DNA of 46,440 nucleotides from Bdellovibrionales bacterium (GTDB taxonomy: Bacteria; Bdellovibrionota; Bdellovibrionia; Bdellovibrionales; UBA1609). The notes below the pieces were generated by a model. The model ran no database searches. It saw only the letters and a program-made list of their open reading frames with translations, and was not told the origin of the DNA. The stretch is from contig JALZUS010000020.1 in assembly GCA_023299885.1 (NCBI GenBank), forward strand, positions 1 through 46,440, in the 5' to 3' direction. Made by a program: the position numbers and the translations under genes. This document shows positions 5,953-46,391 of the stretch, piece by piece. Position 1 is the first letter of the stretch, and each line of letters begins with the position of its first letter.

Positions 5953-6438
5953 CTAAATCTCTCTCTCGAAGTGACAAGTGTATCCGCCCGGGTTTTTTTG
6001 CAAATAATCTTGATGGAAATCTTCTGCAGAATAAAACTTATCAAGTGGTAAAACTTCTGTCACTATAGGCTTATCCCACCATTTTAGCTCTGTAATACTT
6101 TGAATCATTTCCTCTGCAACAAGTTTTTGAATATCTGAACTATAAAAAATAATAGACCTATACTGAGAGCCTACGTCATTACCCTGTTTATTAGGTGTTG
6201 TCGGATTATGAATTTTAAAAAAGTAGGAAAGTATTTTTTCTAATGTGGTTTTATTATTATCAAAGGTCACTTGAATAACTTCAGCATGACCTGTTGTCCC
6301 GGTTTTTACATCTTCGTATACAGGGTTATCTGTCTGGCCACCGGCATAGCCCACCTCTGTCATAATAACACCAGGCTGCTTACGTATAAGCTCTTCTACA
6401 CCCCAAAAACATCCACCCGCTAAAGTTAATTTATCCAT
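5953..6438 (-). CDS. msrA: Peptide-methionine (S)-S-oxide reductase MsrA
   Basis: MsrA repairs oxidised methionine in proteins using thioredoxin as reductant. The 161-residue product begins with the diagnostic GGCFWGVEE motif with catalytic C10. It also has GYAGG, the GHAEV segment and the HNPTTPNKQGNDVGSQYRS block, all typical of the family. The C-terminal CHFERE segment retains one further cysteine, though the resolving-cysteine arrangement differs between subfamilies. No fused MsrB domain is present. Confidence 0.96.
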   Translation of the reverse strand: MDKLTLAGGCFWGVEELIRKQPGVIMTEVGYAGGQTDNPVYEDVKTGTTGHAEVIQVTFDNNKTTLEKILSYFFKIHNPTTPNKQGNDVGSQYRSIIFYSSDIQKLVAEEMIQSITELKWWDKPIVTEVLPLDKFYSAEDFHQDYLQKNPGGYTCHFEREI

Positions 6439-6476: not shown

Positions 6477-6740
6477 TTATCTTATGCTCTTAATACTTTT
6501 TCCGGGGATAGGTGTTTCCTGGCGATCTCCTTGTGCTAATGATGCAGCAAAAGTTCTCACTGATGCCGGGCTAAACTGCCTTAAGCTAGGCGTTTTGCCC
6601 GTAAAGCAAGAGCTTGCCTTAGCTGCTTCAGTGTTTACTGCACCAGAACCACCACTATTACCTATAGTGCAATCAGCCCCATCAGCCATAGCTACTGAGC
6701 TCCCTAAAAGTATTCCTAAAAATATAATTAACGCTTTCAT
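6477..6740 (-). CDS. Small secreted protein, candidate hit-locus (Bd0108-like) protein
   Basis: The 87-residue product has a Sec signal peptide (cleavage probably after residue 19, SVAMA). The mature domain of about 68 residues is low-complexity at its start (GNSGGSGA) and contains two cysteines (C24, C45) that could form a disulphide. The start is supported by AGGAG six bases upstream of the ATG. This ribosome-binding site overlaps the end of the YD-repeat gene nine bases upstream, so the two are co-transcribed and probably coupled. From memory, Bdellovibrio bacteriovorus carries the small secreted Bd0108 next to Bd0109 at the edge of its Flp/Tad cluster; size, export signal and place agree. 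Sequence identity could not be tested. Confidence 0.75.
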   Translation of the reverse strand: MKALIIFLGILLGSSVAMADGADCTIGNSGGSGAVNTEAAKASSCFTGKTPSLRQFSPASVRTFAASLAQGDRQETPIPGKSIKSIR

Positions 6741-6749
6741 TACTAGCTC

Positions 6750-8450
6750 CTATATACTTAATTCGCTGGTCGCGGGTCCAATTAATTCTAATAAATTTGA
6801 AAATATTCCAGCAACTTGCGCCGCCACTGTCGCCCCTTGTGGGCTATTTGCCTCTTTAACACTACCATCAGGATTATACCTAACCAATAGAGAACCTAAG
6901 CCAGGCCTACTAATATTATTGGGTCGCCCTAATTCTTTATCGTACTTAATGGTCATCTTTTTTCTGGTCTGATCAGTTATAGATGTAATCCTACCATTTA
7001 AATCATGACCTAAAGTTACATATTGCCCCGATGAACTTTTTGCTGTTTTTAAATTACATTTTTTATCTGAAGAATACTGATAGTTTGTTGTAATTGTTTT
7101 AGCTAATTTTTTAACAAACTTACCCTTAGCTTTGCTTGATGGAAGCCTACTAAAAAAGTCTACCCTTAAAGCAGAAACTTTATTACACGCATTTTTATAG
7201 ATAAACTGAGTCGTCTTTGAGGGCTCTTGCTTCTTTTTAATTAAACCATTTTCGTTATAGTCATAATTTACCACTTGATTACCATTTTTTACTTTTGTTG
7301 GGCGGCCCAATATAGGGTGATAAACTATTTCAGAAATAAAGCCATTCACTTTAGAGTAGGCCATATGTAAATATCTAGACCCTTTAGTATTAAATTTATG
7401 CACGAAACGATAATGACTTTTATTAGTCACTTTACCATCACATGTTTTTGTAATTTTAGACCAGTAGTCGTTTAATGGGTCCGTTTTGCTGTCGCCAAAC
7501 TGATACCCCTCAACACATCCATTATAGTCTGTAAAACTAGTTACCCAATCTTTATCTTTATTATAAGTTAACTTTCTTACTAATGACTTTTTTGTTTTAG
7601 GGTCTTTTGTAATCACTTTTGTAATGTTATGAATGCTATCTGTTGCATACTGAGTTGTTTGGCCCAAAGCATTTTTAGCCGACACTAGATCCTCACCCTT
7701 ATAAAGGTACTCCATCTTTAAGCCTTTCGGGCCTACAACCCTATGCACTTTTTTAATGCCTGGGTGATATTTAAATGTGAGTGTTCTTGCCATATTATCC
7801 GCTATCTTTAAAATTTGCCCATTCTGTCGGGTAATCTTTATGTGATTATTATTTCTATCGTAAAGCGCCGTCAGATGACCATCCTTACTAAACCTCTGGA
7901 AAGTCCCATCAGCTAAGTATCTTGTGTATTTTCCCTTGCTAAATACAACACGTTCGTCTTTACGCCCGTTGGCTGTATAAACAGCCCCTTCCTTTATTTG
8001 ACCCCCAAAGCCTAGCTGTCGGGTTAATTCTTCACGCAAAAAAGGCCTCTGAATTAAATCTTTTTTTAATTTAGCTAAATATTCACGTGTAAGGCTCTTA
8101 TTTCGCTTGCTGACCTCTTTAATAATTTTTGCATTTGTTTTTGCTATGTCAGATGCTTGGAAATCTTTACGAAGATAGGTGACCTCTTGGCCCCCACCAC
8201 ACTCAGTCACTTTTATGTTGTTTTCAGCTGTTTTTTCTACTGAAGTCTCAAAGTCTGTACACCAACCAAAGCCAAACATACCATTAAAAAGGTTTCTACT
8301 ATTATAAGTTCTGTGAACTCTAATAAAGTAGCCCGTGCCTGGTAAACTTAAGTCCGTTTCGCTAAAAGTGTAGTTTCCGTTTTTCATATCTACTAATGAA
8401 AAAGCAGGAACAGTCATTAATAATGTTATGCAAAGTAAAATAAATTTCAT
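6750..8450 (-). CDS. Secreted YD/RHS-repeat protein, candidate hit-locus (Bd0109-like) protein
   Basis: The 566-residue product has a signal peptide (MKFILLCITLLMTVPAFS). A DUF6531-like N-terminal part follows, with the segments ETDLSLPGTGYFIRVHRTYNSR and MFGFGWCTDFET, typical of RHS proteins. Several YD-type repeats run from about residue 165 to the end (for example FSKDGHLTALYDRNNN and YNENGLIKKK). It is short for an RHS protein and has neither the conserved RHS core end nor a C-terminal toxin domain. AAGGAAGG lies eight bases before the ATG. It is 14 bp downstream of the TadB/TadC-type gene and 9 bp upstream of the small secreted gene, so it belongs to the Tad operon. A cell-surface or periplasmic role linked to the pilus is inferred from context. 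Confidence 0.8.
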   Translation of the reverse strand: MKFILLCITLLMTVPAFSLVDMKNGNYTFSETDLSLPGTGYFIRVHRTYNSRNLFNGMFGFGWCTDFETSVEKTAENNIKVTECGGGQEVTYLRKDFQASDIAKTNAKIIKEVSKRNKSLTREYLAKLKKDLIQRPFLREELTRQLGFGGQIKEGAVYTANGRKDERVVFSKGKYTRYLADGTFQRFSKDGHLTALYDRNNNHIKITRQNGQILKIADNMARTLTFKYHPGIKKVHRVVGPKGLKMEYLYKGEDLVSAKNALGQTTQYATDSIHNITKVITKDPKTKKSLVRKLTYNKDKDWVTSFTDYNGCVEGYQFGDSKTDPLNDYWSKITKTCDGKVTNKSHYRFVHKFNTKGSRYLHMAYSKVNGFISEIVYHPILGRPTKVKNGNQVVNYDYNENGLIKKKQEPSKTTQFIYKNACNKVSALRVDFFSRLPSSKAKGKFVKKLAKTITTNYQYSSDKKCNLKTAKSSSGQYVTLGHDLNGRITSITDQTRKKMTIKYDKELGRPNNISRPGLGSLLVRYNPDGSVKEANSPQGATVAAQVAGIFSNLLELIGPATSELSI

Positions 8451-8464
8451 TCTTTGGACCTTCC

Positions 8465-9340
8465 TTAGACCTTTATATTAACAATCTTTTTAATAGCAAT
8501 TCCACCCATTATTTGAAGACCAAACATAATAATTAAAGCCACCCAGCCCAAGGGCTTAGTAAAAAGTGGTTTTATGTAGTTTGGGTCAATAGCTAGAAAC
8601 ACAAGCATAAGCACAAAGGGAACTGCCGTCATGATAATCCCCTGCATTAAGCCCTGTGCAGTCATTGCATCTATCTTTTTTTCAATCTTTTGTCGCTCTC
8701 TAATTGTGTTGTTAATTGTTTCAAAAGTCTCCGATAAATTACCACCAGTTTCTTTTAAAATATTAATAGAGGTTACAAACATCTGCGTGTCTTGCCTTTG
8801 AACTCTGTCACCAAAATCTTTTAACGCATCCTCTACAGTCATACCTAATCTTATCTTGTTTAAAACTAAATTAAATTCTTTTGAAAGTGGGCCCTTAACA
8901 TTTTCTGTAACTCTTTCCATAGACTGAGTCACACTTAAGCCAGCCTTCACTCCGTTAGCCATCATGGTCATGCCGTCAAGCATTTGATTAACCACTTTAT
9001 TAGAATGAGCCTCCCACAAGCCTTCTACATATATTTTTGGCAACCTAATACCAATTAATGTAACAATAACTCCCATGATAATCCCGGGTACAACATCAGG
9101 CCATAACGCCACAAAAGTTAAAACACCCAGGCCATAACTGCAAAGCAGCAATAAAATTGTCATTTGTTTTTTATTCACATCAACAAACATTTTTTCTAGT
9201 GTTGTAAAAACAATTTCCTGTGTTTCTATAGTCTTTTTATAAAAATGCTCAATAATCCTTGGTGCCTGGTTATAAACAACCATAAAAACACAAGCTCCAA
9301 AAAGAGGTATAAAGATCCAAGGGTTTGCTAAAAAACTCAT
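8465..9340 (-). CDS. tadB: Tad pilus inner-membrane platform protein (TadB/TadC type, type II secretion F family)
   Basis: The 291-residue product has membrane segments near residues 7-25, 62-78, 82-98, 232-250 and 262-282. Between them lies the cytoplasmic four-helix GspF/T2SSF domain, with the typical LDGMTMMANGVKAGLSVTQSM and INILKETGGNLSETFETI blocks. The platform protein couples the TadA ATPase to pilin assembly. Its ATG overlaps the stop codon of the upstream ATPase gene by one base (TAATG). Tad systems normally have two such proteins, TadB and TadC; only one is present here, and the next gene is the YD-repeat protein. The symbol is the closer of the two but uncertain. Confidence 0.85.
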   Translation of the reverse strand: MSFLANPWIFIPLFGACVFMVVYNQAPRIIEHFYKKTIETQEIVFTTLEKMFVDVNKKQMTILLLLCSYGLGVLTFVALWPDVVPGIIMGVIVTLIGIRLPKIYVEGLWEAHSNKVVNQMLDGMTMMANGVKAGLSVTQSMERVTENVKGPLSKEFNLVLNKIRLGMTVEDALKDFGDRVQRQDTQMFVTSINILKETGGNLSETFETINNTIRERQKIEKKIDAMTAQGLMQGIIMTAVPFVLMLVFLAIDPNYIKPLFTKPLGWVALIIMFGLQIMGGIAIKKIVNIKV

Positions 9341-11649
9341 TACTTATCACCACTTGCTTTTTTAATTGCTGGTGATGGCCTTTTTAGAGTTGGCTTTTTT
9401 AGCCCTTCTTTTTTAATTTGTGGCCTACTAATACCAGTAACCTTACTTTTCACGCCCACTTCAGGTTTTTTTACTGAACCTATAGGCTTTTTATCAACTT
9501 TTTTATCTGGCGTAGAAGAGGTCGTCATAAATAAATTTCTTGGTATATTTATTCCTCGCCTCTCAAATTTTTCTATAAATGTTGGGATAAGACCCATCGC
9601 CTGAAACTGACCTATGATTTTTCTATTCTTATCAAAGCCTTCTTCTTTAAATCTAAAAATTTCTTGTAAAGTTACTGTCTCACCCTGCATGCCAACAACC
9701 TCAGTAATACTTTTAATTTTTCTTGATCCATCGCTAAGTCGACCAATTTGCACTATTAAATGAACAGCACCAGCTACTTGTTCTCTGATAGCTTTTGCAG
9801 GTAAATCCATACCGGCCATCATACATAAAGTTTCTAGCCTAGAAATACCCTCGCGAGGTGTATTAGCATGGACTGTTGTCATAGATCCATCATGACCCGT
9901 ATTCATCGCAGAAAGCATATCTAAAGCTGCACCATCACGACACTCACCAACGATGATTCTATCTGGCCTCATACGTAATGAATTTTTAATAAGGTCACGA
10001 ATACTTACAGCACCTGTCCCCTCCATATTGGCCGGACGTGTTTCAAGCCTTACAACATGATTCTGTTTTAATTGTAATTCCGCAGCATCTTCTACTGTAA
10101 TAATTCTTTCATTTTCTGGAATAAACCCTGACATCACATTTAAAAGTGTTGTTTTACCAGAGCCTGTACCCCCAGAAATAATTACGTTTAAACCCTGCTC
10201 AACACAAATTTTTAAAAAGTCTGCCATAGGCTGAGTTAAAGAATGAAACCTATCTACATAATCAGAAATAACAATGCGCTCTTCTGGAAATTTTCTTATT
10301 GTTACTGATGGCCCATCAATAGCTAATGGCTCAATAATGGCGTTTACACGACTACCATCTTCTAAACGAGCATCCACATAAGGTGTTTTCTCATCAATAC
10401 GACGACCTAGTGGCGTTACGATTCTTTCAATTACATTTCTAAGCTGCAAGTTAGAGGTAAATGTAATTGGGCTTAAAGTTAACTTACCCGATCTCTCAAC
10501 ATAAATTTGATCATGCCCATTCACCATAACCTCTGTTACTTTTTTATCAGATAGTAAAGCCTCTAATGGCCCTAAACCTAAAGCCTCATCGATGACTTCT
10601 TTAATGATCTGAGCACGCTCATCACGCGAAAGGCCACCCGCCATCCTGTCTACTAACATAGAAACAGTTTGAGTTGTTTTAGACCTTAGCTCAGCCTCTT
10701 TAGAAGCATCACCCTTAGTACTTGTCATATCTTTTTTAAGGTCCATCTCTTTAATAAGCTCTGAATGTATTTTTAATTTTAATTGATTATTAGTATTTAC
10801 ATCTACCGATGTTGTAGTGGCGCTACCACCTTTATCCGTTAAGGCTATTTTTTGTATTGCAGATTTCTTTAACGGCTTTTTTACACGTGATTTTAAATTT
10901 TGTAACATTCCGCCAGTTAATGTACGGACTAACTTATGATAAGATTGAGTCACTGGTGACTTCGGCTGAGACATCACAAAAGGCATAGACTTTTGAACCG
11001 AACCAAAAACAGTCACATCATCTTGTGGAATGCTGGCAATGACCTGCTTGCGCAAACTTTGAATAATCGCCTGCGAAGAAACACCGTTCTTACTTACTTT
11101 ATTTAAAACCACCTGAACCATATCACCCGGCAATGCCATGCTTGATAATTCGTTAAGGATTTTTCTTGTTTGGTTAATTACTAAAATTTCTGGCGTGGTC
11201 ACAACTAGCACTAAGTGAGCCATCTCTAAATAAGCCGCTTGAACATCCCCAATCTGAGAGCCTAAATCAGCAACAATAAATGGGAAATGCGAAGACAGAT
11301 TTTCAATAGGCGATTTCAGCATTGTTCCTGAAAAATTAAGCTGAGCTGCCTGACCAGTAGATGACCCCAAGTAATGGAATCCTGATGCATGCGGTACTAA
11401 AAACTGCTCTAGGTTTTTTTGAGTAATAACTGCTGAACCAGTAACGATATCATTTAAAGTTTTTGTAGGGCGCAATCCTGTAATAATATTTTGGTCACCA
11501 CAACTATTTTGATCTAAGTCGATAAGTAAAGACCTCTGCTTAAGCTCTTTAGTAATTGCAGTTACTAAGTTAGCAGAAAGCACACTTTTACCTACGCCGC
11601 CTTTGCCGCCAATAATTGCAATTAAGTTTGATTGTGGATTTAAACTCAT
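9340..11649 (-). CDS. tadA: Fusion of TadZ/CpaE-like MinD ATPase with TadA/CpaF secretion ATPase
   Basis: The 769-residue product carries two ATPases that are usually separate. Residues 1 to about 250 form a MinD/ParA-type domain with the deviant Walker A GGKGGVGKS (14-22) and LIDLDQ (42-47); there is no receiver domain as in CpaE. After a linker, residues 290 to about 715 form TadA/CpaF, with Walker A GGTGSGKT (493-500), the RPDRIIVGECRDG box (561-573) and the His-box TTVHANTPREG. The tail is rich in Lys and Pro. In Tad systems TadZ places the machine in the cell and TadA powers pilus assembly, so the fusion would join localisation to motor in one chain. Confidence 0.93.
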   Translation of the reverse strand: MSLNPQSNLIAIIGGKGGVGKSVLSANLVTAITKELKQRSLLIDLDQNSCGDQNIITGLRPTKTLNDIVTGSAVITQKNLEQFLVPHASGFHYLGSSTGQAAQLNFSGTMLKSPIENLSSHFPFIVADLGSQIGDVQAAYLEMAHLVLVVTTPEILVINQTRKILNELSSMALPGDMVQVVLNKVSKNGVSSQAIIQSLRKQVIASIPQDDVTVFGSVQKSMPFVMSQPKSPVTQSYHKLVRTLTGGMLQNLKSRVKKPLKKSAIQKIALTDKGGSATTTSVDVNTNNQLKLKIHSELIKEMDLKKDMTSTKGDASKEAELRSKTTQTVSMLVDRMAGGLSRDERAQIIKEVIDEALGLGPLEALLSDKKVTEVMVNGHDQIYVERSGKLTLSPITFTSNLQLRNVIERIVTPLGRRIDEKTPYVDARLEDGSRVNAIIEPLAIDGPSVTIRKFPEERIVISDYVDRFHSLTQPMADFLKICVEQGLNVIISGGTGSGKTTLLNVMSGFIPENERIITVEDAAELQLKQNHVVRLETRPANMEGTGAVSIRDLIKNSLRMRPDRIIVGECRDGAALDMLSAMNTGHDGSMTTVHANTPREGISRLETLCMMAGMDLPAKAIREQVAGAVHLIVQIGRLSDGSRKIKSITEVVGMQGETVTLQEIFRFKEEGFDKNRKIIGQFQAMGLIPTFIEKFERRGINIPRNLFMTTSSTPDKKVDKKPIGSVKKPEVGVKSKVTGISRPQIKKEGLKKPTLKRPSPAIKKASGDK

Positions 11650-11772: not shown

Positions 11773-13299
11773 TTAGTTTTGAAGCCTAAACTTCTTTTTA
11801 ATCTTATCAGAGCCCTCACTCGCAGAGCTCTTAATAATTGGAGTTACAAATACCACAAATTGGCTTTGAGCCCTTGAGAAGTCTTTTGACCTATAAAGTG
11901 AAATTAACGGATTTGAACTCGCATTAGCAGGAAGCCTATTGTAGTTCTTAGTCGAAGTACTCGATATTAAACCACCAACAGCTGCGCTCTGACTATTTTT
12001 GATAATTAAAGACGTCTCAACAGTCTTTCTTGCAATTTGCGGCTGCCCTCCAGACTGCCCAACTAAGCTAGACACACCTATATTCATTTGCAAATCTACA
12101 CTATCTCCCCTTGCCCCAGAGATAGTCGCTGTCATTTTTGTATTTACACCTGCTTTTGCAAAAAGCGTTTGTGGCTGACCCTCAGCATTTGTAGTCACAT
12201 AAGGAATGTCGTCCTCAGCAGTAATGGTACCTTGCACGCCCTCCTGCACAAGTAGGCTCGAACTTTTTAAAACACGTGCATGGCCATGCTGCTTAGCCCA
12301 GTTTAATTTTGGGAACAAATTATTAATAATTCCCGTTAAGCTAGTTACAGCATTACCCGCTGTCTGTGAGCCGGTGCTAAAACTAATGTTTGATTCATCA
12401 CCTAAGCTAGGCGTCCACTGAAAACGGAAACCCTTTTCATAACTTTTTTGTAGTTCAACAAAATGCACCACTAACTGAATAATCTTTTTGGGACCCGCTG
12501 CTGGAGGTGGCGCTATTTTTAAAAGATTAATAATTCTCTGGCCTGGTTTTGATTTATTTTGTAAAACCTTTTTTTCATTAACAGCATTATCAACAACTAA
12601 ATCTGGCAAATAGGCATCAGCTATAATTTGTGCTCTTTGTTTTTCTTCTACACTTTGAACTACGCCAAGAATCATAAATAAGTTGTTAACTGCCTTTACC
12701 TGAACTTCAGGGTTGTTAATTTCTCTCTCCATGAATTCTGCTATTTTTCCCTCGGCGATTGGACTCAAAATAGCTAAGTTAGCAGTTTGCCCAGGATACT
12801 GTCCGACCACATTATGAATTCTCTTCATTTCTGATGGCAACAACACCTGGCCATCAACAAGAACTTTGTCATTAATAGTTCTAATATTTATGCCTTCAAT
12901 ATCTTGCAATAAACCCTGTATTTCATTGGCAATGCCAAAAAGATTACTCTTTTTTACATTAATACGGAATTCATAGATAATATCATTTGTTTTTGGATCA
13001 TTAATAAATAAAGAACCATCACCAACAATTTTAGGAGTTATTCTTATTTTTTTATCTGCTGAGATATAATCGACATCGACTAATTTTGTATAAAAACCAC
13101 CGCGCTTAAAGTTTTTTGGAGCCAGAGGTATTGGCTGGTCATAATAAACGCCTCTTGTAAGTGTTAATGGTGTTACTTCATGTTTCTTTTTTTCTTGTGC
13201 AAATACTGAGCTGCCGATAAAAAACACTAAGCACGCGAGAGCTGCAACAGTCTTGCAACTTTTTAGTAGCTTTTTAGATAGTGTTTCATTTCTAGACAT
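11773..13299 (-). CDS. cpaC: Tad pilus outer-membrane secretin (CpaC/RcpA)
   Basis: The 508-residue product has a long n-region and a signal peptide with probable cleavage after SVFA (residue 34). It has the N-terminal CpaC beta domain, a BON-like middle part (NIRTINDKVLVDGQVLLPSEMKRIHNVV) and the C-terminal secretin domain with VQEGVQGTITAEDDIPYVTT and AVGGLISSTSTKNYNRLP. It forms the outer-membrane pore for the Flp pilus. The 123-base gap to the downstream ATPase gene holds two small hairpins (GGCC-ATAAAAA-GGCC near 11746-11760, and AAAGCC with GGCTTT near 11678-11697), neither followed by a T-tract in the sense of transcription. Confidence 0.93.
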   Translation of the reverse strand: MSRNETLSKKLLKSCKTVAALACLVFFIGSSVFAQEKKKHEVTPLTLTRGVYYDQPIPLAPKNFKRGGFYTKLVDVDYISADKKIRITPKIVGDGSLFINDPKTNDIIYEFRINVKKSNLFGIANEIQGLLQDIEGINIRTINDKVLVDGQVLLPSEMKRIHNVVGQYPGQTANLAILSPIAEGKIAEFMEREINNPEVQVKAVNNLFMILGVVQSVEEKQRAQIIADAYLPDLVVDNAVNEKKVLQNKSKPGQRIINLLKIAPPPAAGPKKIIQLVVHFVELQKSYEKGFRFQWTPSLGDESNISFSTGSQTAGNAVTSLTGIINNLFPKLNWAKQHGHARVLKSSSLLVQEGVQGTITAEDDIPYVTTNAEGQPQTLFAKAGVNTKMTATISGARGDSVDLQMNIGVSSLVGQSGGQPQIARKTVETSLIIKNSQSAAVGGLISSTSTKNYNRLPANASSNPLISLYRSKDFSRAQSQFVVFVTPIIKSSASEGSDKIKKKFRLQN

Positions 13300-13319: not shown

Positions 13320-14150
13320 TTATCGGCTTCTTGATGGAATAACAGGAGGGCTAGCTAAAGATCTTCTGCTTGGCGCCCTCAATGACCTGCCAATCACACT
13401 CTCTACTGTCGATGATGCTACTTTTGATTTAGCTCTGTCGCTTGGGTGCCTTAGTGACATATAAAGCCCGCCAGGGTTAGTAGAAAGTATATAAATTAAA
13501 TCTTGAGACTCTTTTGGTGTAAGCTCTAAAGTAATACTAGAAAAGTTAGTGTCGCCACGTAAATTTTTAATAAAATTATCTTTGCCCTGTCTTTCAAACA
13601 GCCTTGGCAACTCATTCACTATCTTTAAGCCTGTCGCTAAAATGACCTTATCTTGCATAATAGTTTTAACTTCAGTTTTAGAGTTAGCTCCGCTACCTAC
13701 TGTCAGCGACGCAATAAGGTCAATACGATCACCTGGCTTTATAAGCTTTGCAACACCGGTCAAATCACTCACTGGCACTGAAATAGCTCTTCTGCCTGGA
13801 GCCACCTGTAAAGACAATCCCGTTACTGGGCCCGGCTCCATCACTTTACTTTGTAAAATTTGTTCGCCTTTTTTAATGGGCGCTAAAGCCACCATACCAA
13901 CAGCTATCTCTGGATCTTTAATGGCTTGCGGCTCAATGAAGTCCACAGGTCTTTCCACAATCTCTAGCTTAGTTTCGTCTACTGTTTCCATTTCATTTAT
14001 ATCTTCAGCAGCAATAACAACTCTTTGTTTAGCTCCAAATTTTTTAGTTAGCTCATTTGTTTTTTCTTGAGTGTAACTATACAAAAGAAAAACGGCCATC
14101 AAGGCTGCAAACACAGATATCCAAAGTGTTCTTGTTTCATTATTTCCCAT
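13320..14150 (-). CDS. cpaB: Flp pilus assembly protein CpaB/RcpC
   Basis: The 276-residue product has one N-terminal membrane anchor (SVFAALMAVFLLYSYT) and a SAF-type domain: VVIAAEDINEMETVDE, VGMVALAPIKKGEQIL, and the GRRAISVPVSDLTGVAKLIKPGDRIDLIAS block diagnostic for CpaB. CpaB acts in the periplasm with the secretin. The ATG at 14150 is preferred to an upstream GTG at 14165: GGGG lies about nine bases ahead, and it follows the stop of the TadE-like gene by one base, suggesting coupling. Confidence 0.92.
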   Translation of the reverse strand: MGNNETRTLWISVFAALMAVFLLYSYTQEKTNELTKKFGAKQRVVIAAEDINEMETVDETKLEIVERPVDFIEPQAIKDPEIAVGMVALAPIKKGEQILQSKVMEPGPVTGLSLQVAPGRRAISVPVSDLTGVAKLIKPGDRIDLIASLTVGSGANSKTEVKTIMQDKVILATGLKIVNELPRLFERQGKDNFIKNLRGDTNFSSITLELTPKESQDLIYILSTNPGGLYMSLRHPSDRAKSKVASSTVESVIGRSLRAPSRRSLASPPVIPSRSR

Positions 14151-14151
14151 A

Positions 14152-14655
14152 CTAATTGTCCCCACAACTTGCTGTTATACACATTCCGTAACCCACTTTA
14201 ATCCAAATAGGTGATACTTCTAATCCCCTATCCCTTGTATTTCTCTCACCATTATTCAGCCCATAAATTCTTTCATTATGAAGCTGTATATCGTCTGCAC
14301 CTAAATTTCTTCTTTCTGCAGCTGGGCGCCTACCTACATAAATATCTTTTTCAGAGGCTCTGAAGGTATCGTCTGTCCCAGGATCCACAGCACCATGATA
14401 CCTTACGCCTATGTCTCTATAGTGCTGGAAGGCTCCACCATGATTAGATCTAAAATAAACAAGGTCGGCTCTGTGCCTAAATGTTTCAAAAGCATAACTT
14501 CTTGCCGCTATAGAGCTTAATGTTGCCGAGTGGATCGTGCCATAAAGGCCCAAGCCATAGCTAATAAGCATCATAAAAACAACAAGGATAGGAAGGGCTT
14601 CTAGCGTCGCCATCCCTTTATTGTTTGATATGTTTTTAAATGAAACATCACCCAT
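14152..14655 (-). CDS. TadE-like pseudopilin
   Basis: The 167-residue product has an N-terminal class III prepilin signal: polar leader, then G-MATLE with Glu at +5 after the putative cleavage site, then a hydrophobic helix (ALPILVVFMMLISYGLGLYG). The C-terminal domain is periplasmic, with a CITASC motif at the end. It is the usual layout of TadE/TadF minor pilins processed by TadV. The short spacer at 14656-14758 before it holds a CCAGG-CCCTAAGA-CCTGG hairpin and nothing else evident. Confidence 0.82.
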   Translation of the reverse strand: MGDVSFKNISNNKGMATLEALPILVVFMMLISYGLGLYGTIHSATLSSIAARSYAFETFRHRADLVYFRSNHGGAFQHYRDIGVRYHGAVDPGTDDTFRASEKDIYVGRRPAAERRNLGADDIQLHNERIYGLNNGERNTRDRGLEVSPIWIKVGYGMCITASCGDN

Positions 14656-14758: not shown

Positions 14759-16387
14759 CTAATAGAGAGCTTTATGTGCAATAGGCATTCTACGACCCAT
14801 ACCAAAGGCATGGCTTGTCACCTTAAGCACTGGTGGTGCCTGCCACCTTTTGAATTCGCTCCTCATTAAAGCTTTTAAGGTCCACTTTTCAATCTCACCC
14901 CTTGGGGCTTTAGATTCTGTGACTAACTTAGAAACTGCATTATCTAATTTATCGTACTCAGGAAGGCTATCCTCATCTTTTTGATTAGGCCTTAATTCAG
15001 CAGACGGAGCTCTTGTAATAATTTTTTCTGGTATGCACCCAGGCTTAATCTCATTATAATAGTGAGCTAATTCATAAACTTCTCGCTTTAATAAATCACC
15101 CATCGGAGATAACCCACCACACTGGTCACCGTACAAAGTACTATAACCACAAGCGAACTCACTTTTATTACTTGTGTTTAAAAGCATACTGTTATGCTTA
15201 TTAGAAAAAGCCATTAAATAAAGGCCACGCATGCGGGCCTGAATATTTTCATGCATTAACCCAAAGTCTGACTCCCCAAAACTTTTATCTAAAACACCAA
15301 TAACAGACTCATAAGGTTTTAAAATTTCTGCCGATAAAAATTGAATCCCTAAATTATGTGCAAGCTCTTTTGCCGCATTAAAACTTAAATCAGAAGAGTA
15401 AGGTCCCGGCATAGCTATAGCTGTTACGTTTTCAGGCCCCAAAGCTTCTGCCGCCAAAAAGGCAACAACAGCAGAATCTATACCGCCACTTAAACCAAAA
15501 TGAACTTTTTTAAGACCTGTTTTACCTAAGTAATCTTTAACTCCCAAAACTAAGGCGTCAAACAATTGCTGACTTGGCTTATTTTCTTTTGTGATTTTAT
15601 TTTTTCTTTCCAGACAATTAAAAATGTAAAGCTCTTCTTTAAATGCTGCCGCTCTCGCAACCACCTTACCTTTAGAAAAAATCATACTCTGGCCATCAAA
15701 AATAATTTCATCATGAGCACCAACAACATTAGTGTAAAGAACTGGCACCTTAAAATAATCTGATGTTTTTTTAATAACCGACTCTCGGCGCTTTAACTTA
15801 TTTCTTGTGTATGGAGAGGCGCTAAGGTTAATTACAAAATCAGGCTTTTCAGCCTTTAAAGCTTTTAATGGATTTGTCGAATAAGGAGTCCTGTCACCGC
15901 TATGACCCTCAGACCAAGCCCATATGTCTTCACATATAGTCACTAAAAACTTTTTACCCTTAAGTTTAAAAAAGTTTTTTTCCATAGAGCCTGGCTCTAT
16001 ATGCCGGCCCTCATCAAAAATATCATAAGTCGGCAATAAGGTTTTGTTAAAAAGTTTAGATTTTGATCCACCCTTAACCAAGACAGCCGAATTATAATAT
16101 TTTTTACCAAATTTTTTACTGTTTTCAGTAATGGCTCCATATAAAACAGTTAACCCTTTTGGGATCTTTTTTTCTATACGGGCAATATATTTAATTTGCT
16201 CTTTAACTATTGAATCACGCTCTAAAAGGTCTCCTGGATAATACCCAAACAAGGCACATTCAGGAAAGATGACAAGCTCACAACCTTTTTTATGAGCCTC
16301 TAAAGATTCATTAATAATTTTTTGCGCATTCTCTTTAAATGCACCAAGAGTTGAGTTGATTTGAGCCATTGCAATTTTCATAGTCAA
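14759..16387 (-). CDS. nadE: Glutamine-dependent NAD+ synthetase
   Basis: NadE makes NAD+ from nicotinate adenine dinucleotide, using ammonia from glutamine. The 542-residue product has an N-terminal carbon-nitrogen hydrolase (glutaminase) domain with E43, K115 and C152 (in VTICEDIW) as the catalytic triad. The C-terminal synthetase domain has the ATP-binding SGGIDS loop (300-305). Its start is TTG at 16387, chosen because AGAGAGG lies seven bases upstream; the ATG two codons later has no site at good spacing. It lies inside the Tad gene run but has no known role in pili. A nadD-rsfS fusion acting one step earlier is at 39561. Confidence 0.96.
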   Translation of the reverse strand: MTMKIAMAQINSTLGAFKENAQKIINESLEAHKKGCELVIFPECALFGYYPGDLLERDSIVKEQIKYIARIEKKIPKGLTVLYGAITENSKKFGKKYYNSAVLVKGGSKSKLFNKTLLPTYDIFDEGRHIEPGSMEKNFFKLKGKKFLVTICEDIWAWSEGHSGDRTPYSTNPLKALKAEKPDFVINLSASPYTRNKLKRRESVIKKTSDYFKVPVLYTNVVGAHDEIIFDGQSMIFSKGKVVARAAAFKEELYIFNCLERKNKITKENKPSQQLFDALVLGVKDYLGKTGLKKVHFGLSGGIDSAVVAFLAAEALGPENVTAIAMPGPYSSDLSFNAAKELAHNLGIQFLSAEILKPYESVIGVLDKSFGESDFGLMHENIQARMRGLYLMAFSNKHNSMLLNTSNKSEFACGYSTLYGDQCGGLSPMGDLLKREVYELAHYYNEIKPGCIPEKIITRAPSAELRPNQKDEDSLPEYDKLDNAVSKLVTESKAPRGEIEKWTLKALMRSEFKRWQAPPVLKVTSHAFGMGRRMPIAHKALY

Positions 16388-17063: not shown

Positions 17064-17924
17064 CTATTCGCTATCTTTTGATATCTGTAAGGCTTGGCTA
17101 CCAAAGAAGACTACAATTGCGACAATAATACCTAAAATAATAAGCATCCTTAATAGCCTACCAAAACTAAAGCCACCGCCATCATTGGCTTCTACACTCG
17201 CAGCTTTCCGCTCACGCACTTTCATCTTCTTAGTGCGGCCCTCTTCATCTTGAGAACTTTTTGTTTTTACAGTTACATTTGTACGCTCAGCACCACGCTT
17301 TTGCTGGCTATCATCATCTATTGAGTATTTACTACTTACAGCAATTCGATCCGGACGACCTGCAGCAGCCCTATCTCTTTTATTAAGAGCCCAAGCCGGT
17401 ATGCCCTCACTCTCGTCTACTTTTATTTTTTCTTCTTTAGCTTTTTTCTTAGCGCCAACTTTTCCAGAAGACCCACCATTATTATTAATGCTACTAGAGC
17501 TTATTCTTGTCCTTGAGCCATTGCCACTATTTCTGGATGTGTCCGCTGAGTCAGATGCAGCCCTTGAAGACTCTGACGAACCAGCACTTCCACCAGGCTC
17601 ATCACTAGAGCCAGATAACCCACTACTAGTAGATCCACCGCCACCTACAGGCGGCCTCCCTGATGCAAAATCAAACTCTTGATAAGCGCCATTGCATTCA
17701 CCGGCTGTATTGGCTCCACCTAAAGAGGGTAATTCACCCACTTCTATTAAGCATAAAAAATAATCTCCAAAATAACTAAAGCCCCATTCACGAACATTAT
17801 TATTAAGACCCCAAACAAGCCTTGCCATAGACACAACAATCAAAAGAACAAGAACCGTTTCTAGCACGGCTTGACCTGAGTTTGACCTAAGGTTGGGTTT
17901 AGAATTTTTATGATTATTGCTCAT
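17064..17924 (-). CDS. Pseudopilin-like protein with Ser/Gly-rich linker and C-terminal membrane helix
   Basis: The 286-residue product starts at ATG 17924, with AGG seven bases upstream; a TTG seven codons earlier has no ribosome-binding site. The N-terminus is a class III prepilin signal (SNSG-QAVLE, Glu at +5, then the helix TVLVLLIVVSMARLVWGL). Then come a short domain with two cysteines, a low-complexity Ser/Gly/Asn stretch of roughly 90 residues, a highly charged Lys/Glu/Arg region, and a second membrane helix near the C-terminus (LLRMLIILGIIVAIVVFFGSQAL). A pilin-like start combined with a C-terminal anchor is unusual. It is divergent from flp and is the first gene of the minus-strand Tad run. 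Confidence 0.78.
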   Translation of the reverse strand: MSNNHKNSKPNLRSNSGQAVLETVLVLLIVVSMARLVWGLNNNVREWGFSYFGDYFLCLIEVGELPSLGGANTAGECNGAYQEFDFASGRPPVGGGGSTSSGLSGSSDEPGGSAGSSESSRAASDSADTSRNSGNGSRTRISSSSINNNGGSSGKVGAKKKAKEEKIKVDESEGIPAWALNKRDRAAAGRPDRIAVSSKYSIDDDSQQKRGAERTNVTVKTKSSQDEEGRTKKMKVRERKAASVEANDGGGFSFGRLLRMLIILGIIVAIVVFFGSQALQISKDSE

Positions 17925-18082
17925 CAATAGCCTATCGGCAGACAAGGTAATGTACTAAAATGAGACTGCGATGTACTTGTCTCAAAATAAGACGAAATAA
18001 AATTTAATTTTTTTATAAATCTTACCGATTTAATTTATGTAAACTTAAAAAACGTCCGAAATAGAGACAAAGGGGAATACAT

Positions 18083-45284: not shown

Positions 45285-46391
45285 ATGGCACAAATAGACA
45301 AACTATTTAGACTAATGAAAGAGCAAGGCGCCTCTGATTTACATATCACCGCTGGCTCACCACCTTACTTTAGGCTTCATGGTGAAATGTCACCAGTAAA
45401 CCACCCCTCTTTATCTAATGAGGATGTTCAGGCTTTGGTTTTTGAAATTTTAACTGAAAAACAACAAAGTAACTTTGTTAAAAACTGGGAGCTTGATTGT
45501 AGTTACGCGCTAGAAGGCATTGCACGTTTTCGTGTAAACGTATTTATGCAAAGACGCGGACTAGGAGCTGTGTTTCGTATTATTCCAGAAGATATTAAAA
45601 CTGTAGACGAGCTTGGGCTACCAAGTGTTTTAAATGACCTTGCCAATGTAAAGCGTGGTTTAATTTTGGTTACTGGGCCAACAGGGTCTGGTAAATCAAC
45701 AACTCTAGCTGCCATGATTCATACAATTAACATGACAAGAAAAGAACATATCTTAACTGTTGAAGACCCTATTGAATTTGTGCATGAAAGCAGAAAGTCT
45801 TTAATTAACCAACGTGAGGTTCATAGCCATACGCAATCTTTTTCTAAGGCCTTAAAAGCCGCTTTACGTGAAGACCCCGATATTATTTTAGTGGGGGAAT
45901 TACGTGACTTAGAAACTATTAAGCTAGCAATGACTGCTGCAGAAACAGGTCACGTTGTTTTCGGAACACTTCATACAAATACTGCAGCGAGTACTATTGA
46001 CCGTATTATTGATGTTTTCCCTGAAGGCGAAAAGGCACAGGTAAGAACTATGCTTGCAGAAAGCTTACGCGCCGTTGTTGCCCAAACACTTTTTAAGCGC
46101 GCCGACATTAAGGGACGTATTGCTGGTATCGAAATTTTAACAGGCACAAGAGCCGTAAGTAACTTAATTCGTGAAGGTAAAACATACCAAATCCCTACTA
46201 TGATGCAGACAGGGAAAAAACACGGAATGATTACTTACCAATCTTATATTAAAAACTTAGTTGATCTTGGAAAAGTATCTCAAGAAGACGCTGATATCTT
46301 TTTAGGTAAAGTGAATGGCAAAGAAGATGAAGAGGAGAGCCCAAAAAAAGACAAAAAGTACTCTTACGGACGTAAAAAGAAAATAGGATAA
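45285..46391 (+). CDS. pilT: Type IV pilus retraction ATPase PilT
   Basis: PilT disassembles type IVa pili to power retraction. The 368-residue product has the PAS-like N-domain, Walker A GPTGSGKST (131-139), the Asp box DPIEFVH, the Walker B and retraction motif ALREDPDIILVGELRD (193-208) and the His-box GTLHTNTAASTIDR. The tail is charged. AGGAAG lies about eight bases before the ATG. It belongs to the type IVa system, separate from the Tad pilus encoded earlier in the window. Confidence 0.96.
   Translation: MAQIDKLFRLMKEQGASDLHITAGSPPYFRLHGEMSPVNHPSLSNEDVQALVFEILTEKQQSNFVKNWELDCSYALEGIARFRVNVFMQRRGLGAVFRIIPEDIKTVDELGLPSVLNDLANVKRGLILVTGPTGSGKSTTLAAMIHTINMTRKEHILTVEDPIEFVHESRKSLINQREVHSHTQSFSKALKAALREDPDIILVGELRDLETIKLAMTAAETGHVVFGTLHTNTAASTIDRIIDVFPEGEKAQVRTMLAESLRAVVAQTLFKRADIKGRIAGIEILTGTRAVSNLIREGKTYQIPTMMQTGKKHGMITYQSYIKNLVDLGKVSQEDADIFLGKVNGKEDEEESPKKDKKYSYGRKKKIG

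Follow-up and report, generated by a model that had tools for sequence, protein, structure and literature searches.

The choice that predatory Bdellovibrio makes between growth on prey and free growth is a question several decades old, for which bd0108 offers the best-known genetic handle. In B. bacteriovorus HD100, the Bd0108 protein is paired with a YD/RHS protein, Bd0109, in one operon with Tad genes, an arrangement published in 2013 (PMC3818213). bd0108 and bd0109 are co-transcribed with the tad genes and Bd0108 binds Bd0109 weakly in vitro (PMC3818213); the loss of bd0108 alters pilus display and permits axenic growth (PMC3818213, PMC11323537). The link between Bd0109, the Tad system and the growth switch was published in 2013-14 (PMC3818213, PMC4267844), and Bd0108 is disordered by NMR (PMC4267844). 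Earlier work with BLAST called Bd0108 Bdellovibrio-specific or absent from some strains (PMC3818213, PMC5941755). The preliminary description of the DNA analysed here had presented the tie of a YD protein to the growth switch and the pilus, in one operon, as a prospect; it was already known from HD100 and is not new, and for the present locus it would hold by orthology.

Similar loci, with a YD gene and small secreted neighbours, are A11Q_2375 and A11Q_2207-2208 of B. exovorus JSS and BMS_0182-0184 of Bacteriovorax marinus (PMC4267844). For B. exovorus, Prehna et al. favoured A11Q_2207/2208 over the Tad-linked A11Q_2375 as the counterpart of the hit locus. JSS differed from the locus described here in having two YD copies (genome G045; loci L097 and L098), with 63% and 39% identity to Bd0109, which matched the 62% and 38% given in the paper. 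The Tad-linked copy (63%) was followed 10 nt downstream by a 124-aa secreted ORF and then by a one-Cys ORF. The small gene beside this copy goes unmentioned in the accessible part of the 2014 paper (PMC4267844), and its presence bears on the published choice of the hit-locus equivalent. Small signal-peptide genes also adjoin Bd0109 homologues in Bdellovibrionales bins from wastewater (PMC10469934); that survey detected them in 20/21 bins by relaxed BLAST, whereas the count presented here is phylum-wide, distinguishes two types of small gene and includes shuffle and antisense controls. More distantly, the Rhs cores of type VI Rhs effectors and the teneurins share the RHS/YD repeats and a predicted beta-sheet strip with the YD protein, but the latter is about half the length of the closed shells, lacks a C-terminal toxin and ends in a conserved helix.

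The window, that is, the whole stretch of DNA analysed here, was a contig of 46,440 bases (C20) from an assembly of 86 contigs (1.84 Mb, 92% complete). Its locus is quite likely the hit locus of an uncultured Bdellovibrio relative, with an exported YD protein and a disordered two-Cys partner, and with a published small RNA of HD100 read as the mRNA of a second partner. Encoded upstream were a platform protein (T2SSF), the ATPase TadA with a CpaE/MinD-like domain, a secretin and CpaB (Table 1), which identified the gene group as a Tad/Flp operon. At the end of this operon the 87-aa and 566-aa secreted ORFs, with gaps of 9 and 14 bp, were exactly as first described. Shine-Dalgarno-like sites (AGGAG; AAGGAAGG) were present in front of both genes, and signal peptide cleavage was placed by eye at SSVAMA/DG in the 87-aa protein and at TVPAFS/LV in the YD protein (the slash marks the cleavage). 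A search for a FliA-type promoter at the Tad operon gave no convincing match. In the place of the window TadA with its CpaE/MinD-like domain, HD100 had an ORF of comparable length (753 aa). Immediately upstream of the Tad genes, and in their orientation, lay an NAD synthetase-like gene (by eye; 14759-16387, minus strand), with a pilin-like ORF (17064-17945) near it, and the window also carried pilT, the gene of the type IVa pilus retraction ATPase (45285-46391, plus strand).

Table 1. Features of the locus and of the neighbouring Tad genes, in window coordinates.
Feature	Position	Strand	Basis
MsrA gene, 3' of the small gene, where most relatives carry a second small secreted gene	5953..6438	-	Pfam PMSR 6.2e-64
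Small secreted protein of 87 aa, filling the Bd0108 slot	6477..6740	-	ORF list; C24, C45; predicted disordered
TEAAKASSC in the 87-aa protein, instance of the [TS]EA-x(0-12)-C motif	6606..6632	-	Shared with slot proteins
Signal peptide of the 87-aa protein, residues 1-19	6684..6740	-	By eye and heuristics; hydrophobic core and AMA/D
566-aa secreted YD/RHS protein, Bd0109 orthologue	6750..8450	-	Homology, Pfam, Foldseek
Conserved helix at the C-terminal end of the YD protein, residues 540-561	6768..6833	-	Conservation and predicted structure
Signal peptide of the YD protein, residues 1-18	8397..8450	-	By eye; PAFS/LVDMK, aligned with the Bd0109 cleavage site
Tad platform protein (TadC-like, T2SSF)	8465..9340	-	Pfam T2SSF 5.9e-22
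TadA/CpaF ATPase with N-terminal CpaE/MinD-like ATPase	9340..11649	-	Pfam T2SSE 5.6e-59, CbiA 6.2e-14; TIGR03819 1e-95
Tad secretin (RcpA/CpaC-like)	11773..13299	-	Pfam Secretin 3.5e-22
CpaB/RcpC	13320..14165	-	TIGR03177 4.1e-39, exceeds its cut-off

Judged by sequence, the 566-aa YD protein is the orthologue of Bd0109 of B. bacteriovorus HD100. The alignment joined residues 1-566 of the window protein to residues 1-550 of Bd0109 (42% identity, E=2e-159), including the N-terminal domain and the C-terminal tail, and Pfam recognized DUF6531 (4.5e-13) and RHS_repeat (1.8e-6) in the window protein; cleavage of the Bd0109 signal peptide has been reported as AFA/LV (PMC3818213). Bd0109 was also the single strong match in HD100. 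A published primer next to bd0108 matched this HD100 locus, and the 101-aa ORF 3' of the YD gene contained RRHDDTVSREIKGS, the peptide missing in the classic 42-bp bd0108 deletion (PMC3818213). A second YD copy was not found in the genome of the window, where the only other match in the genome search covered 74 residues (E=0.008). YD homologues were present in 137/144 class genomes, mostly as one strong match each (about 29-52% identity along almost the full length), and in 289/320 genomes of a phylum-wide sample.

The gene order of the window (tadC, YD gene, small secreted gene) was that of HD100, and full-length orthology of the YD protein, signal peptides and short gaps were also common to both. 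The preliminary claim of a hit locus stands for the YD gene, from its orthology, single copy and gene order, and is likely for the small gene. To the HD100 order the window contributed several differences: a small protein that could not be aligned with Bd0108 and had no CxxC, no second small gene, and MsrA in the following position.

For comparison, 120 YD neighbourhoods were taken, and counts were made on loci with readable sequence on the relevant side. In 118/119 loci, window included, the YD gene was preceded by a tadC homologue in the same orientation; the single exception was the extra YD copy of B. exovorus JSS. A small signal-peptide ORF lay directly 3' of the YD gene in 114/117 readable loci including the window (109 recognized by script, 5 by eye), or in 113/116 without it, with a median gap of 12 nt and a median length of 96 aa. 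Because of these two counts, the arrangement is not a product of chance. The three exceptions, with tadC and a YD gene but no small secreted gene, belonged to one family (G072-G074; loci L143, L144 and L139), and the small partner is therefore dispensable in some lineages. Outside the class, all 20 sampled loci (20/20) showed tadC, the YD gene and small secreted gene(s) in this order. Homologues of tadC were found in 135/144 class genomes; most genomes without a YD gene were also without tadC, and several discordant cases were at contig ends.

This close tracking of tadC by the YD gene across the class, its position beside tadC in the 20 loci elsewhere in the phylum, beyond the known obligate predators, and the failure to delete Bd0109 even without prey (PMC3818213) are what would be seen if the YD protein served the Tad machine as a structural or assembly component, with the small proteins its cargo or chaperoned substrates, and a growth-switch role confined to Bdellovibrio proper. 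We consider this reading possible but doubtful, since the loss of bd0108 in HD100 specifically alters prey dependence and the display of pili (PMC3818213, PMC11323537). A decoupling of Tad from type IVa pili through genomes devoid of the latter was attempted and given up: 16 genomes lacked PilO, but all those tested for PilT (12/12) had it, so that effects of the Tad and type IVa pili are inseparable in these data.

Whether the 87-aa protein is the equivalent of Bd0108, as had been proposed, was answered in part. Slot position and shared features spoke for the proposal; a sequence match did not appear, either pairwise with Bd0108 (E=36) or, for known structures, in a PDB sequence search. With a profile HMM of the slot proteins, 145-169 of 1000 shuffles reached the score of the 87-aa protein, and 17/25 slot members, each left out in turn, likewise missed p<0.05, which shows the low power of the profile. 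The mature slot proteins were rich in G, A, S and T, and had exactly two cysteines in 78/113 cases and four in 21/113 (two or four in 99/113), the window protein having two. CxxC was found in 49/113 (6 expected from shuffles) and is not a general feature. The motif [TS]EA-x(0-12)-C was present in 28/112 slot proteins against 2.4 expected (maximum of 9 in 300 shuffles, which kept the Cys positions); the window instance reads NTEAAKASSC, and Bd0108 of HD100 has the related FEATTSALGDC (EA-x7-C). The last residue was charged or one of R, K, Q, N, E, D or H in 103/113 slot proteins, compared with 32% of control ORFs, which include spurious reading frames, and this polar C-terminus is a Bd0108-like feature of the 87-aa protein. 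AlphaFold2 gave the 87-aa protein a mean pLDDT of 53.5 and a pTM of 0.18, and it is predicted to be intrinsically disordered.

The absence of a sequence match to Bd0108 and of CxxC would also fit an 87-aa protein that has no kinship with Bd0108 and only happens to fill the slot. This is unlikely, given that the 114 filled loci of 117 have the same anatomy, that the TEA..C motif is shared with slot proteins and that the small gene is set equally close to the YD gene. The 87-aa protein is likely the counterpart of Bd0108, from its position and shared anatomy, a point that sequence cannot decide.

The rate of evolution of the slot proteins was several times that of the YD protein: where YD proteins were 75-85% identical, mature slot proteins and second small proteins were each about 30% identical. 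In close pairs, dN/dS was about 0.05-0.5 for slot genes and, in most, about 0.03-0.05 for YD genes. By these substitution rates, the slot partner is changing fast yet is under purifying selection, and selection keeps the YD protein constant. The fast change of the slot genes can explain why BLAST led to Bd0108 being called specific or missing. That almost all genomes of the class have this slot occupied, by proteins too variable for BLAST, argues against a Bd0108-type partner confined to Bdellovibrio, and makes the growth switch testable in other species.

The AlphaFold2 model of the YD protein (from an 8-row alignment) had a mean pLDDT of 76.5, with an uncertain N-terminus, and its top Foldseek matches were Rhs cores and teneurins (8qjc, E=9.4e-19), with low TM-scores. 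The model shows an Rhs-type beta-sheet fold class, and the low TM-scores to Rhs cores limit the claim to this class of repeat fold; a closed shell was considered and rejected, the model being confident locally yet low in TM-score to the Rhs cores. Pfam and NCBIfam gave no toxin domain in the YD protein. Its most conserved 20-residue block was residues 541-560 (0.77 against a mean of 0.56 among 116 homologues), the C-terminal block of 22 residues was predicted by AlphaFold2 to be helical, and a similar tail, with PAGV and four further residues at its end, was also found outside the class. This conserved helix occupies the position of the variable toxins in other Rhs proteins. It is improbable that the small proteins are effectors that an Rhs shell carries and that reach the prey by way of the Tad pore: Rhs shells elsewhere do hold cargo, the Foldseek matches include cargo-bearing Rhs cores and the slot proteins outpace the YD protein, but loss of Bd0108 frees growth instead of ending predation (PMC3818213), the slot proteins are short and predicted to be disordered, close pairs show them to be under purifying selection, and no toxin family was matched in Pfam, PDB sequence or NCBIfam searches.

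If the window locus is a hit locus, the YD protein, exported and with an Rhs-type beta-sheet fold without a toxin domain, would be tied to the Tad pilus machine, where we infer that it acts. The 87-aa protein would be its disordered, two-cysteine exported partner and, by analogy with Bd0108 and Bd0109, would bind it and alter its effect on the pilus; the state of contact may so be fed into the growth decision, as the work on HD100 suggests. In many relatives, a second exported partner with one cysteine would be supplied by its own downstream gene. A growth-switch function in this organism is proposed by analogy with HD100.

The second gene was seen at many loci as a further secreted ORF 3' of the slot gene, with one Cys and mostly a basic charge. 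Under strict criteria (ATG, Shine-Dalgarno-like site, signal peptide and one Cys) it was present in 69/105 loci on the sense strand and in 0/105 on the antisense strand. Near the window locus there was no second secreted small ORF; elsewhere in the same genome none was found next to VTT/DedA-family genes, and a profile search, of low power, had a best E of 0.2. In HD100, a terminator-like hairpin after bd0108 was followed by an ORF of 66 aa at complement(96483-96683) (L080 8483-8683), with AAAGGAGAG ahead of its ATG. This ORF sits within the "small non-coding RNA" at 96455-96716 that Capeness et al. found raised in the bd0108 mutants they examined, and both of their RT-PCR primers for this RNA map inside the ORF. 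Compared with two close species, dN was 0.01-0.02 and dS 0.35-0.47, which at the sequence level shows purifying selection as in protein-coding genes; across second genes, dN/dS was about 0.03-0.2 in most close pairs and up to about 0.55 in one. A later paper placed a hypothetical gene, BD_RS00505, between Bd0108 and Bd0103, which is probably the 66-aa ORF; our literature search found no paper linking the ORF or BD_RS00505 to the sRNA.

A simpler reading of the RNA that is raised on disruption of bd0108 is that it is the mRNA of a second partner. We lean towards a view of the hit locus as a phylum-wide module, in which a constant Rhs-type protein is accompanied by two fast-evolving families of disordered, cysteine-bearing exported proteins (two-Cys and one-Cys) and the HD100 sRNA is the mRNA of the second. 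If so, a second secreted protein, and not a regulatory RNA, may mediate the switch in prey dependence, and a direct experiment becomes available on what bd0108 mutants up-regulate. The added value of the present analysis is the slot across the phylum, together with the protein reading of the sRNA of the locus; the fast evolution of this slot and the one-Cys secreted gene inside the HD100 sRNA look new.

A Bd0109-like part was also found in Paraburkholderia dilworthii (L008 9935-14470), at the N-terminus of a 1511-aa protein with apparent TPR and CHAT regions (by eye).
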